Origin: Enterobacter oligotrophicus
GTDB taxonomy: Bacteria; Pseudomonadota; Gammaproteobacteria; Enterobacterales; Enterobacteriaceae
Direction: 5' to 3'
NCBI RefSeq assembly: GCF_009176645.1
Contig: NZ_AP019007.1
Coordinates: forward strand, 2,418,001 to 2,482,000
DNA: 64,000 bases
Below are positions 1,950 to 52,349 of this stretch, one piece after another (the first letter of the stretch is position 1; each line of letters opens with the position of its first letter). A program made the translations under genes and the position numbers. The notes beneath the pieces were generated by a model. That model searched no databases. It saw only the letters and a list, made by a program, of their open reading frames with translations, and was not told where the DNA came from.

Positions 1950-2026
1950 CAAAAAACCCCGCCTAAGCGAGGTTTTTATCAGGGTTTTGCGGTTGGTCGC
2001 CGCAGAACACACTGTGTTACGTCAAC
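1950..2026 (-). ncRNA. istR: IstR-1 antisense RNA (antitoxin of tisB)
   Basis: Small RNA of about 77 nt that blocks tisB translation. The 5' end predicted from the promoter is G at 2026, followed by TTGACGTAACACAGTGTG. Those 18 bases (2025-2008) are perfectly complementary to the tisB mRNA at 2255-2272. The 3' end is the Rho-independent terminator at 1951-1977. Length, 5' pairing region, terminator and position between ilvB and tisB match E. coli IstR-1. It points toward higBA and terminates about 40 bp before the higBA promoter. A longer SOS-inducible IstR-2 sharing the terminator is known in E. coli, but I cannot place its start here. Confidence 0.92.
1951..1977 (-). terminator. istR terminator
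   Basis: The inverted repeat ACCCCGC-CTAA-GCGAGGT is followed on the minus strand by a T run, with A/T tracts on both sides. It ends the IstR RNA and separates it from the downstream higBA transcription unit. Confidence 0.85.
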
Positions 2027-2032
2027 GCAAAA

Positions 2033-2061
2033 AGTATACGCGATCGCAGACGAACGCGCAA
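2033..2061 (-). promoter_or_regulatory. istR-1 promoter
   Basis: On the minus strand TTGCGC (2061-2056) and TATACT (2038-2033) are 17 bp apart. They lie 7 bp upstream of the predicted IstR-1 start at 2026. No LexA box overlaps it, consistent with the constitutive IstR-1 known in E. coli. Confidence 0.8.
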
Positions 2062-2121
2062 TTCCGGCACGGATTTTGACGTTTTTGAGTATGGATCGCC
2101 TTCTAAAATTTGTCCATAAAA

Positions 2122-15994: not shown

Positions 15995-16405
15995 TTAGTT
16001 AATTTCGATACGGCGCGGTTTTTTCTCTTCCGGGATCACGCGTTCCAGATCGATAAACAGCAGGCCGTTGACCAGGTTCGCGCCTTTAACGTGAATGTTC
16101 TCGGCTAACTGGAACTTACGTTCAAAGTTGCGCTCGGCGATGCCCTGGTAAAGGTAGGTGCGTTCTTTCTGCTCGGCCGTATGGGAACCTTTCACCACCA
16201 GCAGGTTGTCCTGCGCAGTGATTTCCAGCTCGCTTTCTGCGAAACCGGCGACGGCAATGGCGATGCGATAGTGGTTTTCGTCAACCAGCTCAACGTTGTA
16301 TGGAGGGTAGCCATTACTCTGGCTCTGGTTATTTTCTAAATGGTTAAACAGACGATCAAAACCAATTGCAGAACGGTATAGCGGAGAAAGATCGAAATTA
16401 CGCAT
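15995..16405 (-). CDS. ibpA: Small heat-shock chaperone IbpA
   Basis: 136 residues (E. coli 137), HSP20/alpha-crystallin domain about 30-125, with the C-terminal IEI anchor that binds the beta4-beta8 groove of neighbouring subunits. It co-assembles with IbpB on unfolding proteins in the cytoplasm. The start [20 protein letters not shown] is the conserved N-terminus. Its expression is under the sigma-32 promoter at 16511-16539 and a ROSE-type leader. Confidence 0.97.
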
Positions 16406-16503
16406 AAATAAAAACTCCTGAAATCAGCGAGAGATTGCAGCCTTCCACCATGGACAGGCTTCTGTACCCCGAACACCCCGCAGGCGTGTTCGTTCTCGGG
16501 TCA
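16406..16503 (-). promoter_or_regulatory. ibpA 5' leader, ROSE-type RNA thermometer
   Basis: About 98-nt leader between the sigma-32 promoter and the ibpA start. The Shine-Dalgarno TCAGGAG lies 8-10 nt before ATG and is preceded by GCTGCAATCTCTCGCTGATT, including the GCTG-type anti-Shine-Dalgarno element of ROSE structures. A GC-rich hairpin (ACACGCCTGCGGGGTGT) lies farther 5'. E. coli ibpA is the reference case of this thermometer; structure here is inferred. Confidence 0.7.
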
Positions 16504-28980: not shown

Positions 28981-30375
28981 TCACGATGATAATGTTCTGA
29001 TTAAATTGGAAAAATCTTCTTTTATGTCGTGGCTTTCTTCGCGTAACTGCTCAATCTTACGACAAGCGTGCAGCACGGTCGTATGGTCACGGCCACCAAA
29101 CGCATCGCCGATTTCCGGCAGACTGTGGTTGGTTAACTCCTTTGCCAGCGCCATCGCCATCTGACGCGGACGCGCCACCGAGCGGGAACGACGTTTAGAC
29201 AGTAAATCTGCCACTTTGATTTTGTAATACTCGGCCACGGTCTTCTGAATATTGTCGATAGTGACCAGTTTTTCCTGCAATGCCAATAAATCACGCAGCG
29301 CTTCACGCACAAAATCGATGGTGATGGCGCGACCGGTGAAGTTGGCATTGGCGATAACGCGGTTCAGCGCCCCTTCCAGCTCACGGACGTTAGAACGCAG
29401 ACGTTTTGCGATAAAGAACGCCACTTCACCCGGCAGGCGAATGTCGTTCTCATCGGCTTTTTTCATCAGGATCGCTACGCGGGTTTCCAGCTCCGGTGGC
29501 TCGATCGCCACGGTCAGGCCCCAGCCGAAGCGGGATTTCAGACGATCTTCAACACCGTTGATCTCTTTTGGATAACGATCCGAGGTCAAAATGATCTGCT
29601 GATTACCTTCCAGCAGCGCATTGAAGGTGTGGAAAAACTCTTCCTGCGATCGTTCTTTGTTGGCGAAGAACTGAATGTCATCGATCAGCAGCGCGTCAAC
29701 GGAACGATAGTAGCGTTTAAACTCTTCGATCGCATTGTTTTGCAGGGCTTTTACCATGTCCTGAACGAAGCGCTCGGAGTGCATATACACCACTTTCGCA
29801 TTGGGCTTGCGCGCCATAATACCGTTACCCACTGCGTGCAGCAGGTGCGTTTTACCGAGACCCGTGCCGCCATACAGGAACAGCGGGTTATAAGCGCCAC
29901 CGGGGTTATCGGCAACCTGGCGAGCCGCCGCGCGCGCCAGCTGGTTCGATTTACCTTCAACGAAGTTATCGAACGTGTGTTTAACGTTAACGTTAGAGCG
30001 GTAGGTTGGCTCGGCGGGTGCAGGAACATTATCCCAGCCCTGACGGGCAGGTGCGACGCGAGGGGCCGGAGCGGGTGCCGCCTGAGCAGGCGTTGCCACA
30101 TTCACGGTTTCACGAACAGTTTGGGTGACCGGCTTTGTTCCCACTTCAAAGCGCAGCTGCGGGGCATCCGTCCCGCAGAAATCGTTCAGCAGTCCATTGA
30201 TATTATTAAGGTACTTGTCCCTTACCCAATCGAGCACAAAACGGTTTGGCGCATACAAAGCCAGCGTGTTATCGCTCAGTTCCGCCTGCAACGGGCGGAT
30301 CCACATACTGAATTCTGTGGCTGGTAACTCATCCTGCAATCGGGCAAGACACTGCTGCCAAAGCGAAAGTGACAC
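28981..30375 (-). CDS. dnaA: Replication initiator DnaA
   Basis: 464 residues. Domain I (1-85) recruits DnaB/DiaA; a linker domain II (about 86-130) is rich in Ala/Pro and slightly shorter than in E. coli (467 in total). Domain III is the AAA+ ATPase, with Walker [10 protein letters not shown] and Walker [10 protein letters not shown]. Domain IV is the DNA-binding HTH with the signature [15 protein letters not shown]. The start is GTG at 30375 (SLSLWQQC...), as in E. coli, after GGAG; a second GTG four codons upstream is in frame but lacks that spacing. First gene of the operon. Confidence 0.99.
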
Positions 30376-49532: not shown

Positions 49533-51629
49533 ATGAACTATAAAATACCTCTGTCCTTAATGGTGTGTAGCGCCTTTACTGCAACGGCTGCGGATCAGCC
49601 AGTCTGGAAAGCCATTGCTTTTGGGCAGTCAACCGATCTGAATTTTTCGTCGAACGTACTGCCGGAAAAAATCGGCGTTAACGATGTCACTATCGACGGG
49701 AAAAAACTCTCTGCACAGGATACAGCCAACCTGTCTAAACCCGTCACCCTTGAAAGTCGTGGCGGTAAGATCGCCAACTCACATGACGGGTTAACGTTTT
49801 TCTATACCGAGCTGCCAGCAAAGGAGAACTTCGTTTTACAGGCCACTGTTCGGGTAGATCAATTTGGCCCGGAAAACGGGGCGAAACCCGCCGCCCAGGA
49901 AGGGGCTGGTCTGTTGGTGCGCGACATCCTCGGCGTGCCACGCCAGCAGCCGTTGAAAGAGGGTTATGAGGAGTTCCCGGCGGCATCGAATCTGGTGATG
50001 AATGCCATTATGACGCAGGATAAAAAAGACCATCATCGGATAAAACTGCAGGCCATAACCCGCGAAGGGATTTCTCATCCGTGGGGTGATGCCGGGGCGG
50101 CAATTAAAAAGCAGAGCTACCAGGAAGAGGTGGATATTAGCAAGACGCCAGCGTTTCGTTTAAAGCTGGAACGCACCAACGATGGGTTTATCACCGCGTG
50201 GGCTCCCGCAGGCAGTGACGCATGGGTGAGTAAAAGTGTGCCACGCGCCGATCTCATTTCTGTACAGAACAAAGATCATTACTACGTGGGCTTTTTCGCC
50301 TCGCGTAATGCCAAAATCACCGTATCCGACGCGATGCTGACTACTTCAGCAGCGAACACCGTGGTGTCTCACCCCTGGCAGGCAAAACCTGTTCCCGTTG
50401 TTGTTCAACTTGCTTCTGCGAGCAAAAGCCTGACTGACCACTATCTGGTTCAGGCCCGTGCGAACTACGACGGGGTATTCAGCGTTCGGCAAAACGAAGT
50501 GGTGATCGGGAGTGATAAACCGGTCAAAGCGGGAGAAATGTACGTCGTTCCCGCGACGCTAACGGAGAGTAATGCGTTTAGTCTGACATTCACCCCCACC
50601 AGCGGTGAAGCCGTTCATCAGACGTTTACCGTCGATAAGGTGAACGGTATTGATACAACAACGCTTCACGTTTCACCGGTGGGTAAAGCGGATGGAAGAG
50701 GTACGCAGGAATCTCCTGTGGATTTAGCCACCGCGATCGGTCTGGTTGCGCCGGGCGGAAAGATTATCCTGAGTGCGGGTGATTATCCACGGAGCGAAAT
50801 TCCTCTGACGGCCAGCGGCAGTGCGGGAAAAATGACGACGTTACAGGCTGAAGGCAAAGCGGTAATCCACGGTTTGCTGGTGGATGCAAACTACTGGCAT
50901 CTCAAAGATATTGAGGTAACAGATAAAAGTCTGCGCGTACAGGGGAGCCACAACGTTATTGAGAACGTCACCGCTTATCGCAACGACGATACTGGCATCC
51001 AGATCTCCTCCCCGGAAAATATTGGCCGACCACTGTGGGCCCGCGACAACCGGGTAATCAACTCTGAATCATATGCCAATGAAGATCCGGGCAAAATAAA
51101 TGCCGACGGCTTTGCGGTCAAAATGCGCGTCGGCGAGGGCAATCGCCTGGAAAATTGCTATTCCCATGACAACATCGATGATGGCTTTGACCTGTTCAAC
51201 AAGATTGAGGACGGTGCTAATGGCGTTGTGGTGATCGAGAATTCAATTGCCCGTAACAATACCAGCAACGGTTTCAAACTCGGCGGGGAGGGCCAGCCTG
51301 TCGCACATGAAATCCGCAATAGTAAAGCAATCGGCAATCATCTGGATGGTTTTACCGATAACTTCAACCCAGGCGCGCTGGTGGTGGCGAATAATATCGC
51401 GATAGATAACCTGCGCTTTAACTTTATCTTCCGGCCCAGCCCGTATGGTGAAACAACCACACAAGGTGTATTTACCGGTAATAAATCGGTGCGCACAACA
51501 CCCGGAAAGTATGACGATGCCGTAACGGGGAATATTGATGAGTCGAACTATTTTATCGTGAAAGGGGAAAGCGTGAACGACAGCGGGGAGATACTGCCAG
51601 ATGGCGCTTCGCTTATCTCACAACGGTAA
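49533..51629 (+). CDS. Secreted PL9-type pectate / exopolygalacturonate lyase (PelX-like)
   Basis: 698 residues with a signal peptide (MNYKIPLSLMVCSAFTATAA, cleavage near 20-21), a beta-sandwich-like N-terminal half (about 21-370) and a right-handed parallel beta-helix (about 378-690). Calcium-site aspartates are spaced as in PL9: Asp525 (NADGF), Asp549, Asp550 and Asp553 (DDGFDLF); the proposed catalytic Lys582 is in NGFKLGG. It cleaves polygalacturonate by calcium-dependent beta-elimination. Size and domains resemble Dickeya PelX, a periplasmic exo-lyase. No kdu/ogl genes or transporter adjoin it. Absent here in E. coli. The last codons overlap a REP-like sequence. Confidence 0.85.
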   Translation: MNYKIPLSLMVCSAFTATAADQPVWKAIAFGQSTDLNFSSNVLPEKIGVNDVTIDGKKLSAQDTANLSKPVTLESRGGKIANSHDGLTFFYTELPAKENFVLQATVRVDQFGPENGAKPAAQEGAGLLVRDILGVPRQQPLKEGYEEFPAASNLVMNAIMTQDKKDHHRIKLQAITREGISHPWGDAGAAIKKQSYQEEVDISKTPAFRLKLERTNDGFITAWAPAGSDAWVSKSVPRADLISVQNKDHYYVGFFASRNAKITVSDAMLTTSAANTVVSHPWQAKPVPVVVQLASASKSLTDHYLVQARANYDGVFSVRQNEVVIGSDKPVKAGEMYVVPATLTESNAFSLTFTPTSGEAVHQTFTVDKVNGIDTTTLHVSPVGKADGRGTQESPVDLATAIGLVAPGGKIILSAGDYPRSEIPLTASGSAGKMTTLQAEGKAVIHGLLVDANYWHLKDIEVTDKSLRVQGSHNVIENVTAYRNDDTGIQISSPENIGRPLWARDNRVINSESYANEDPGKINADGFAVKMRVGEGNRLENCYSHDNIDDGFDLFNKIEDGANGVVVIENSIARNNTSNGFKLGGEGQPVAHEIRNSKAIGNHLDGFTDNFNPGALVVANNIAIDNLRFNFIFRPSPYGETTTQGVFTGNKSVRTTPGKYDDAVTGNIDESNYFIVKGESVNDSGEILPDGASLISQR

Positions 51630-51656: not shown

Positions 51657-51728
51657 TTAGTGGTTGAACGTACCGAAAGAGACGTTCATGTTGCTGAAGA
51701 GAGCGATGATTTTATTGACCAGTTTCAT
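51657..51728 (-). CDS. Unannotated 23-residue amphipathic small protein
   Basis: The start is ATG 51728 and the stop is TAA 51659-51657; Shine-Dalgarno AGGA lies 7 nt upstream. The sequence begins MKLVNKIIALFSNM and ends FGTFNH: a short basic, hydrophobic amphipathic helix. A sigma-70-type promoter (51781-51809) and two perfect CRP-type palindromes (51759-51774, 51816-51831) lie immediately upstream. It is in the gap between the PL9 gene and atpC, antisense to neither. I do not recognise a homologue; the general character (short basic N-terminal helix, CRP sites) recalls the E. coli small protein AzuC, but that is resemblance, not homology. Confidence 0.65.
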   Translation of the reverse strand: MKLVNKIIALFSNMNVSFGTFNH

Positions 51729-51758
51729 GATGGCATCCTGATTTATTGAGGTTTGTTT

Positions 51759-51831
51759 TGTGACACACTTCACAAAAAAGAGTCTACGCCTCATTTTTTA
51801 ACCGATCAATATTTTTGTGACGAAAATCACA
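51759..51831 (-). promoter_or_regulatory. Promoter with two CRP-type sites
   Basis: TGTGA-CACACT-TCACA (51759-51774) and TGTGA-CGAAAA-TCACA (51816-51831) are both perfect TGTGA-N6-TCACA palindromes. Between them on the minus strand lie TTGATC (51809-51804) and TAGACT (51786-51781), 17 bp apart. The predicted start is near 51774, giving a roughly 46-nt leader to the small gene. The upstream site centres near -50 and the downstream one near +8, so net repression by cAMP-CRP is plausible. Confidence 0.75.
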
Positions 51832-51880: not shown

Positions 51881-51910
51881 AAAAAAGCCAGTCTGAAACC
51901 AGACTGGCTT
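51881..51910 (-). terminator. atp operon terminator
   Basis: An 11-bp perfect stem AAGCCAGTCTG / CAGACTGGCTT with an AAAC loop, followed by a T run on the minus strand, 20 bp after the atpC stop. Confidence 0.92.
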
Positions 51911-51929
51911 TATGCTTTTCAAGCCGGTG

Positions 51930-52349
51930 TTACATCGCTTTTTTGGTCAACTCGATAACGCGCAGTTTGGCGATCGCTTTGGCCAGCTCCGCAGACGCCT
52001 GAGCGTAATCCACGTCACCATGAGAGCTGTTAATGTGCTCTTCAGCCTTACGCTTCGATTCCAGGGCTCGCGCTTCGTCGAGATCCTGGCCACGAATAGC
52101 GGTATCGGCCAGAACGGTCACACTACCTGGCTGCACTTCGAGAATGCCGCCGGACAGATAGATAAACTCTTCATGACCGAACTGTTTAACGATGCGGATC
52201 ATACCAGGCTTAATGGCGGTGAGCAGCGGCGCGTGACCAGGGAAGATACCCAGTTCACCTTCACTACCCGTTACCTGGATTTTCTCGACCAGACCAGAGA
52301 ACATTTGTTGCTCTGCACTGACGACGTCCAGGTGGTAAGTCATTGCCAT
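51930..52349 (-). CDS. atpC: ATP synthase epsilon subunit
   Basis: 139 residues: N-terminal beta-sandwich (1-85) and C-terminal helical hairpin that can inhibit F1. [19 protein letters not shown] is the standard N-terminus. Last gene of atpIBEFHAGDC, 20 bp after atpD. Confidence 0.99.

Follow-up and report, generated by a model that had tools for sequence, protein, structure and literature searches.

A probable micropeptide gene between atpC and a pectate lyase gene

The gap between atpC and a gene for a PelX-like pectate lyase holds a short minus-strand reading frame with a predicted control region of its own. The features, in coordinates of the window (the whole 64-kb stretch of DNA that was analysed), are as follows.

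49533..51629, + strand: PelX-like pectate lyase gene, the convergent neighbour (NCBIfam NF041903, below the curated cut-off)
51657..51728, - strand: micropeptide gene, 23 codons and a stop codon, MKLVNKIIALFSNMNVSFGTFNH (sequence reading, dN/dS)
51736..51739, - strand: Shine-Dalgarno core AGGA, 7 nt 5' of the ATG ('gga' kept in the atpC-site alignment)
51759..51774, - strand: downstream CRP site (CRP2), a perfect palindrome centred at about +8.5 relative to the predicted transcription start
51774, - strand: predicted transcription start, 7 nt after the -10 hexamer (deduced from the sequence)
51781..51786, - strand: -10 hexamer TAGACT (sequence and conservation)
51804..51809, - strand: -35 hexamer TTGATC, with a 17-bp spacer to the -10 (sequence and conservation)
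51816..51831, - strand: upstream CRP site (CRP1), a perfect palindrome centred at about -49.5, 57 bp from CRP2
51884..51911, - strand: terminator-like hairpin after atpC (hairpin scan)
51930..52349, - strand: atpC (ATP synthase epsilon), the upstream neighbour

Direct reading of the minus strand placed the ATG at 51728 and the end of the stop codon at 51657. The preliminary description of this DNA had proposed a 23-codon frame with a Shine-Dalgarno sequence, and a TTGATC-N17-TAGACT promoter flanked by two flawless TGTGA-N6-TCACA palindromes; the start codon, stop codon and AGGA were all verified in the sequence, as were the promoter and both palindromes. The hairpin at 51884-51911 sets the micropeptide gene apart from the atp operon, and no terminator-like hairpin was found in the window within 300 nt 3' of the micropeptide stop codon.

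The two palindromes are the sole matches to TGTGA-N6-TCACA with one mismatch or fewer in the 64-kb window. Their number is itself ordinary (1.95 expected with one mismatch allowed; two or more in 57 of 100 shuffles). The pair stands out because both palindromes are perfect and lie at this spacing in a host genome (4.48 Mb) that contains 23 perfect CRP palindromes in total. A generic promoter scan missed TTGATC-N17-TAGACT, which has 8 of 12 matches where the rule demands 9, and the promoter call therefore rests on conservation among relatives.

Selection on the reading frame

Because residues fixed by search patterns are conserved by construction, selection was tested only on loci found through DNA similarity. 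The sample comprised 35 non-redundant 23-aa loci from the atpC site, collected without the peptide pattern and giving 29 distinct coding sequences. The dN/dS of the frame was 0.12, compared with a mean of 0.73 and a minimum of 0.24 in the column-permuted null (0 of 300 as low), which indicates purifying selection on the atpC-site frame. In the alignment of these 35 loci, the conserved blocks correspond to CRP1, TTGATCG, GTAGACT, CRP2, the ribosome-binding site and the frame. In the approximately 70 nt 3' of the stop codon, just scattered bases are conserved, and no conserved base-pairing region outside the ORF was found there. The preliminary description had called the locus a small-protein gene and had named conservation and codon substitution as one way to check it; the dN/dS, the conserved frame and the peptide-pattern counts given below all back that claim. 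Its further suggestion of a dual-function RNA found no support at the atpC site, where conservation drops within the stretch examined after the stop codon.

A family of micropeptide genes at several chromosomal sites

The gene belongs to a family of 135 non-redundant loci encoding 80 distinct peptides, chiefly in 23-aa and 16-aa forms, whose members were recognised by a loose motif. The loci lie at six or more chromosomal sites, of which the commonest is downstream of atpC.

Downstream of atpC: 73 of 135 loci
Near ycaQ, lpxK or kdsB: 34 of 135 loci, every one of the 16-aa form
Beside a purine permease: 20 of 135 loci
psiE-pgi: 3 of 135 loci
rssA-ychJ: 2 of 135 loci
Other: 3 of 135 loci (L095 and L206 at a common site next to a TPR gene; L178 on a 4-kb contig)

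The ycaQ/kdsB label was given to loci with kdsB, ycaQ or lpxK no more than about 1.5 kb away; three of these (L117, L118, L120) have an XdhC-like frame on the opposite side. For most site types, a single representative served to check the names of the neighbours. Two loci were excluded from the 135, namely L062, which has no family peptide, and L090, which comes from an AT-rich small genome and has no CRP site; L135 was retained though it lacks CRP2. At the atpC site the frame occupies nearly the same place in 50 non-redundant loci (35 of 23 aa, one of 22 aa and 14 of 16-17 aa).

Among 392 sampled genomes of the host's taxonomic family, a 270-bp region query gave matches in 122 at E 0.01, the weaker of these being partly chance or CRP sites alone. 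The peptide-level DNA pattern ATGAARNNNNTNMAYAARATHATHNNNNYNTTY matched 95 of the 392 genomes, at one place each, with one match for the reversed control; L090, among the 95, is probably a chance match. By a rough count from the two lists, about 103 of the 392 genomes have a member. Equally, G239, one of five sampled genomes of the host genus, gave no match by either the DNA query or the peptide pattern, and the gene is therefore dispensable. A strict pattern requiring both a perfect CRP site and the frame, applied across the order, matched 11 of 394 genomes, all within the 34 from Enterobacteriaceae, and none of the 360 sampled from other families of the order.

A scan of named genomes yielded 62 stretches. 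The hosts, with many gut and plant bacteria among them, include Pectobacterium, Brenneria, Samsonia, Prodigiosinella, Edaphovirga and Serratia, as well as Leclercia, Kosakonia, Enterobacter, Citrobacter, Kluyvera, Raoultella, Klebsiella, Buttiauxella, Cedecea, Silvania, Pseudocitrobacter, Pseudescherichia, Intestinirhabdus and one genome labelled Escherichia sp. ESNIH1. In one K. pneumoniae and one K. aerogenes record, the 16-aa form lies downstream of atpC and has a perfect CRP site; no gene is listed at the 16-aa locus in these two records, whose gene table is known to be incomplete. A widespread gene, hidden by its short length, is added to the well-studied Enterobacter, Citrobacter, Kosakonia, Pectobacterium and Klebsiella. 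The larger fact, absent from the preliminary description, is the existence of a multi-site family with a common promoter cassette.

Four genomes carry a 23-aa member at rssA-ychJ together with a 16-aa member at ycaQ/kdsB: G324 (L070, L139), G257 (L066, L141), G040 (L284, L138) and G176 (L285, L140). Because both forms occur in the same genomes, they are separate loci and not alleles. At L017 and L019-L021, a gene for a membrane protein, YccA-like by eye, separates atpC from the micropeptide gene, which is kept together with its cassette.

The 23-aa member L178 is found on Buttiauxella gaviniae contig NZ_LXEP01000068.1 (4 kb), with its ATG near 2781. The contig also holds a relaxase, a resolvase fragment and a RelB/ParE-type pair, and mobile carriage of the micropeptide gene on it is possible. 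The family peptide had no match in plasmid and phage collections. Searching plasmids by blastn with the window gene returned two Klebsiella records, each containing the atpC locus, and the L178 region returned four records, in which 32-35 nt beyond the gene matched.

We found no orthologue in E. coli by blastn of the window region over 5426 genomes, in the K-12 atpC-glmU gap or with one 16-aa region, in agreement with the earlier remark that no gene is known in this gap in E. coli. The blastn search gave weak 60-nt matches in two of the 5426 genomes, the K-12 gap has no palindrome with fewer than three mismatches and no related frame, and the region of the 16-aa form had no match in the E. coli genome set. 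One of the two 60-nt matches was rejected as unrelated, lying between argR and yhcN.

No Pfam or NCBIfam model matches the three member peptides tried, and Rfam gives nothing at the micropeptide locus at gathering scores. In the openly licensed literature, no description was found for the peptide strings, the atpC/glmU gap, the ycaQ/kdsB site or the AzuC homologues, and the family is apparently unnamed. According to the accessible part of the Entero67K preprint (PMC11188072), that set comprises 67,297 intergenic smORF clusters of 15-70 codons under selection in Enterobacteriaceae, clustered genus-wise. The micropeptide family would qualify by length and may be listed in the Entero67K tables; the main text, in that accessible part, names neither atpC nor AzuC.

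Conservation of the CRP sites

A CRP palindrome with one mismatch or fewer lies 26-51 bp 5' of the start codon in 134 of the 135 family loci. This site, CRP2, is perfect in 104 loci and has one mismatch in 30, and in all 134 it is positioned over or beside the predicted transcription start. It was present in 35 of the 36 non-redundant loci added by the peptide-level pattern, which has no CRP requirement (L090 omitted), and in 30 of 30 loci added by the named-genome scan. The best-scoring -10 ends 5-7 bp 5' of CRP2 in 82 of the 87 members of 22-23 aa, and CRP2 therefore covers the first transcribed bases. CRP1 (one mismatch or fewer) is found 52-58 bp upstream of CRP2 in 86 of these 87 members. 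At the ycaQ/kdsB site, CRP1 was seen in 0 of 34 members and CRP2 is kept in 33 of 34, 1-6 bp after the -10, which would be the position expected of a repressor. Judged by position, an operator placed to repress, close after the best-scoring -10, is thus a feature of the family, and the operator over the predicted transcription start that the preliminary description had pointed out is backed by a geometry kept across relatives.

Paired CRP palindromes precede micro-ORFs

Of the 392 genomes, 45 contain a pair of perfect palindromes spaced 52-60 bp apart, each at one place, and the reversed-pattern control gave 0. By raw count, a micro-ORF follows at 44 of the 45 places. At 37 places it is a member of this family; this figure combines 23 read among the dual-CRP loci, 11 already-known members, L070 and two read separately. 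L257 was counted in the 23 by the frame start in its printed tail, and L262 and L263 in the 23 are the known members L013 and L012. The one place without such a micro-ORF, in G330, adjoins a short-chain dehydrogenase gene.

At the remaining seven places the promoter is laid out in the same way, but the micro-ORFs are different ones, of 27, 32 or 47-52 aa. These are MKIINFIKSLLEKQAEIHTLAAKLTLS, MKFLPRLKAFLKKQGEIHTQAARLSLY, MKLMKKINKLMKELGDIYLEAAKVTKY and MKTMLAISKFFEKLDEAYSDLCKRIGSIVLPF, plus 47-52-aa frames ending GKRMY, at loci L253, L254, L256, L258 (also L062) and L259-L261, the last three at the purine-permease site. Next to L254 is an MFS gene; its product and that of the gene adjoining the host azuC share 66% identity over 381 residues. 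This resemblance between neighbours suggests, without proving, one extended class that includes AzuC.

The search rule that two perfect CRP palindromes at this spacing lead to a micro-ORF opens the CRP-repressed micropeptide set (so far AzuC, SpfP and VcdP) to direct tests of its size and function. Somewhat short of an even chance, in our judgement, is a more general reading, in which the two-operator CRP cassette would be a movable module spreading diversifying 'fed-state' amphipathic micropeptides around enterobacterial chromosomes, with AzuC as the sole characterised branch of a far larger CRP-repressed set, given the MFS neighbour of L254. As part of that reading, the module would have brought the 23-aa family to the atpC, purine permease, psiE-pgi, rssA-ychJ and TPR sites and to the relaxase contig, a one-operator version would drive the 16-aa form near ycaQ/kdsB, and in other genomes the cassette would serve the different micro-ORFs of 27, 32 and 47-52 aa.

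Comparison with AzuC and other CRP-repressed micropeptides

In logic, the nearest known system is AzuC of E. coli. The accessible text of PMC8672173 states that AzuCR and Spot 42 are CRP-repressed and that AzuC raises GlpD activity; AzuCR is also linked to GlpD in that of PMC10746267. The host has its own azuC orthologue, MKLRKILKSMWANYCNTFKDVPPGAMF, at approximately 688.7-688.9 kb of G000:C1. The two genes differ in synteny, E. coli azuC (b4663) lying between yecJ and yecR and the micropeptide gene beside atpC. Among the matches listed, azuC is also present in 33 of the 50 atpC-site genomes, and no family member was seen in 45 of 78 azuC genomes; azuC was taken as present in at least 78 genomes with near full-length matches, further listed matches being short.

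The micropeptide begins MKL, as AzuC does, and N13 and F18 are in register in both E. coli and host AzuC; F11 is found in E. coli AzuC, whereas host AzuC has W11. Both genes have a CRP palindrome followed by N6-TTGAT, and a further CRP site lies close by in each. Host azuC and the micropeptide gene are identical at 24 of the 26 bases from CRP1 into the -35; the search pattern fixes 14 of the 26, and 10 of the 12 free bases are identical. In the host genome, three places show the arrangement TCACA-N5-7-TTGA after a perfect palindrome: azuC, the micropeptide gene and one beside a GST-like frame. Three perfect CRP palindromes also lie within 133 bp at G000:C1 2646397-2646529, beside a GST-like frame, in what we take to be, probably, the mtlA control region.

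The micropeptide gene thus has the CRP-site and promoter architecture of AzuC with the second CRP site placed differently: in azuC it is 30 bp from the first and over the -10 region, whereas the distance in the micropeptide gene is 57 bp. The products differ too, AzuC having 27-28 aa and a KDVPPG tail and the family 23 or 16 aa and FGTFN. Scored with a family profile over positions 2-18, AzuC reached at most 3.5 bits and host AzuC -8.0, compared with 44 or more for members, which had trained the profile. Five of eight distinct AzuC N-termini outscored all 1595 background frames (best 3.5 vs -1.6). The score of host AzuC was equalled or exceeded by 4 of the 1595, and two of the best background frames are AzuC variants. 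Without positions 1-3, between 2 and 56 of the 1595 background frames scored as high as AzuC. Because AzuC scores far below family members, its function is not transferable by homology.

Two further systems were compared by description, from the accessible part of their sources. Spot 42/SpfP is likewise a CRP-repressed locus and codes for a 15-aa protein, but Spot 42 is known above all for RNA base-pairing and SpfP binds CRP. VcdP of Vibrio cholerae is a CRP-repressed 29-aa micropeptide activating a carbon-metabolism enzyme, GltA, but VcdRP is a dual-function RNA with a conserved base-pairing site. By kind, we rate the present family as a CRP-repressed micropeptide, but as a new family with a distinctive recurring cassette.

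Predicted properties and proposed role of the micropeptide

The N-terminal part of the peptide reads MKLxNKIIAxF, and the polar FGTFN tail is strongly conserved. F18, G19 and T20 are invariant in all 72 distinct 23-aa coding sequences, partly by construction for the named-scan loci; the single 22-aa member (L010) has S20. Over residues 1-13, a stretch chosen by the analyst, the hydrophobic moment is 0.56 and the charge +2, with 44 of 2000 shuffles as high. Over residues 1-16 the moment is insignificant (204 of 2000 shuffles as high). The basic amphipathic helix proposed in the preliminary description is therefore plausible but weak.

We think it likely that the locus is a genuine stand-alone micropeptide gene, amphipathic in its product and CRP-repressed, that is, glucose-on. 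The frame, the selection on it, the geometry of promoter and operators and the recurrence at unlinked sites come from the sequence itself; from these, and by analogy with AzuC, we infer the repression, the membrane location and the enzyme target. Since the operator covers the start site, and given the likeness to AzuCR and its stated repression, the gene would be repressed by cAMP-CRP and expressed when a preferred carbon source is present. In the proposed mechanism, a sigma-70 promoter would be flanked by two high-affinity CRP operators, and cAMP-CRP bound to the downstream one, over the transcription start, would block it. The peptide would be made at low cAMP, when glucose or another preferred carbon source is present; with its short basic amphipathic N-terminal helix and conserved FGTFN tail, it would most likely sit on the cytoplasmic face of the inner membrane. 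There it may modulate a membrane-peripheral enzyme that belongs to carbon or energy metabolism, as AzuC reportedly does with GlpD; a membrane-surface peptide acting on an enzyme, like AzuC, is the leading reading of its function.

The functional product could instead be an RNA, a CRP-controlled small regulator in the style of AzuR or Spot 42 with an incidental or secondary frame. AzuCR, Spot 42 and VcdRP are dual-function according to the accessible text of their sources, and the computed fold of the window transcript is slightly more stable than those of shuffled sequences (z -2.30, with 4 of 200 as low). In 38 of 49 members of 16/17 aa (L090 included) and in 20 of 87 members of 22-23 aa, a terminator-like hairpin follows no more than 110 nt beyond the stop codon, which would give a transcript of sRNA size. 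Given the constraint on codons, the drop in conservation after the stop codon in the atpC-site alignment and the lack of an Rfam family at the locus, we regard an RNA product as unlikely. We place at about the same low level the idea that the CRP sites activate the gene, so that the peptide is made in carbon-poor conditions. CRP1 does lie upstream of the promoter, with the conservation in 22-23-aa members described above, but at about -49.5 it occupies neither of the usual activating positions, -41.5 and -61.5. CRP2 is the more widely kept site and the sole one in ycaQ/kdsB-site members. Moreover, E. coli azuC, with CRP1 at about -48.5 from the annotated RNA start, is stated to be CRP-repressed (PMC8672173, accessible text).

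A membrane-active peptide resembling a type I toxin would also be short, basic and partly amphipathic and might be expected behind tightly placed operators, as here. This reading is distinctly improbable in view of the absence of any antisense antitoxin family in Rfam at the locus, the retention of the gene at syntenic positions over many genera and the conserved polar tail. Least credible of all, and very improbable, is a role as leader peptide or cis-element acting on a nearby gene (PelX or glmU): although neighbouring genes are close at each site, the sites are unlinked, number at least six and have unrelated neighbours, often in the opposite direction, and the next downstream gene in the window is convergent.

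Other features of the window

Rfam matches elsewhere in the window are IstR at 1951-2081 (-), a ROSE-type thermometer at 16399-16472 (-) and AsdA at 29794-29874 (+).
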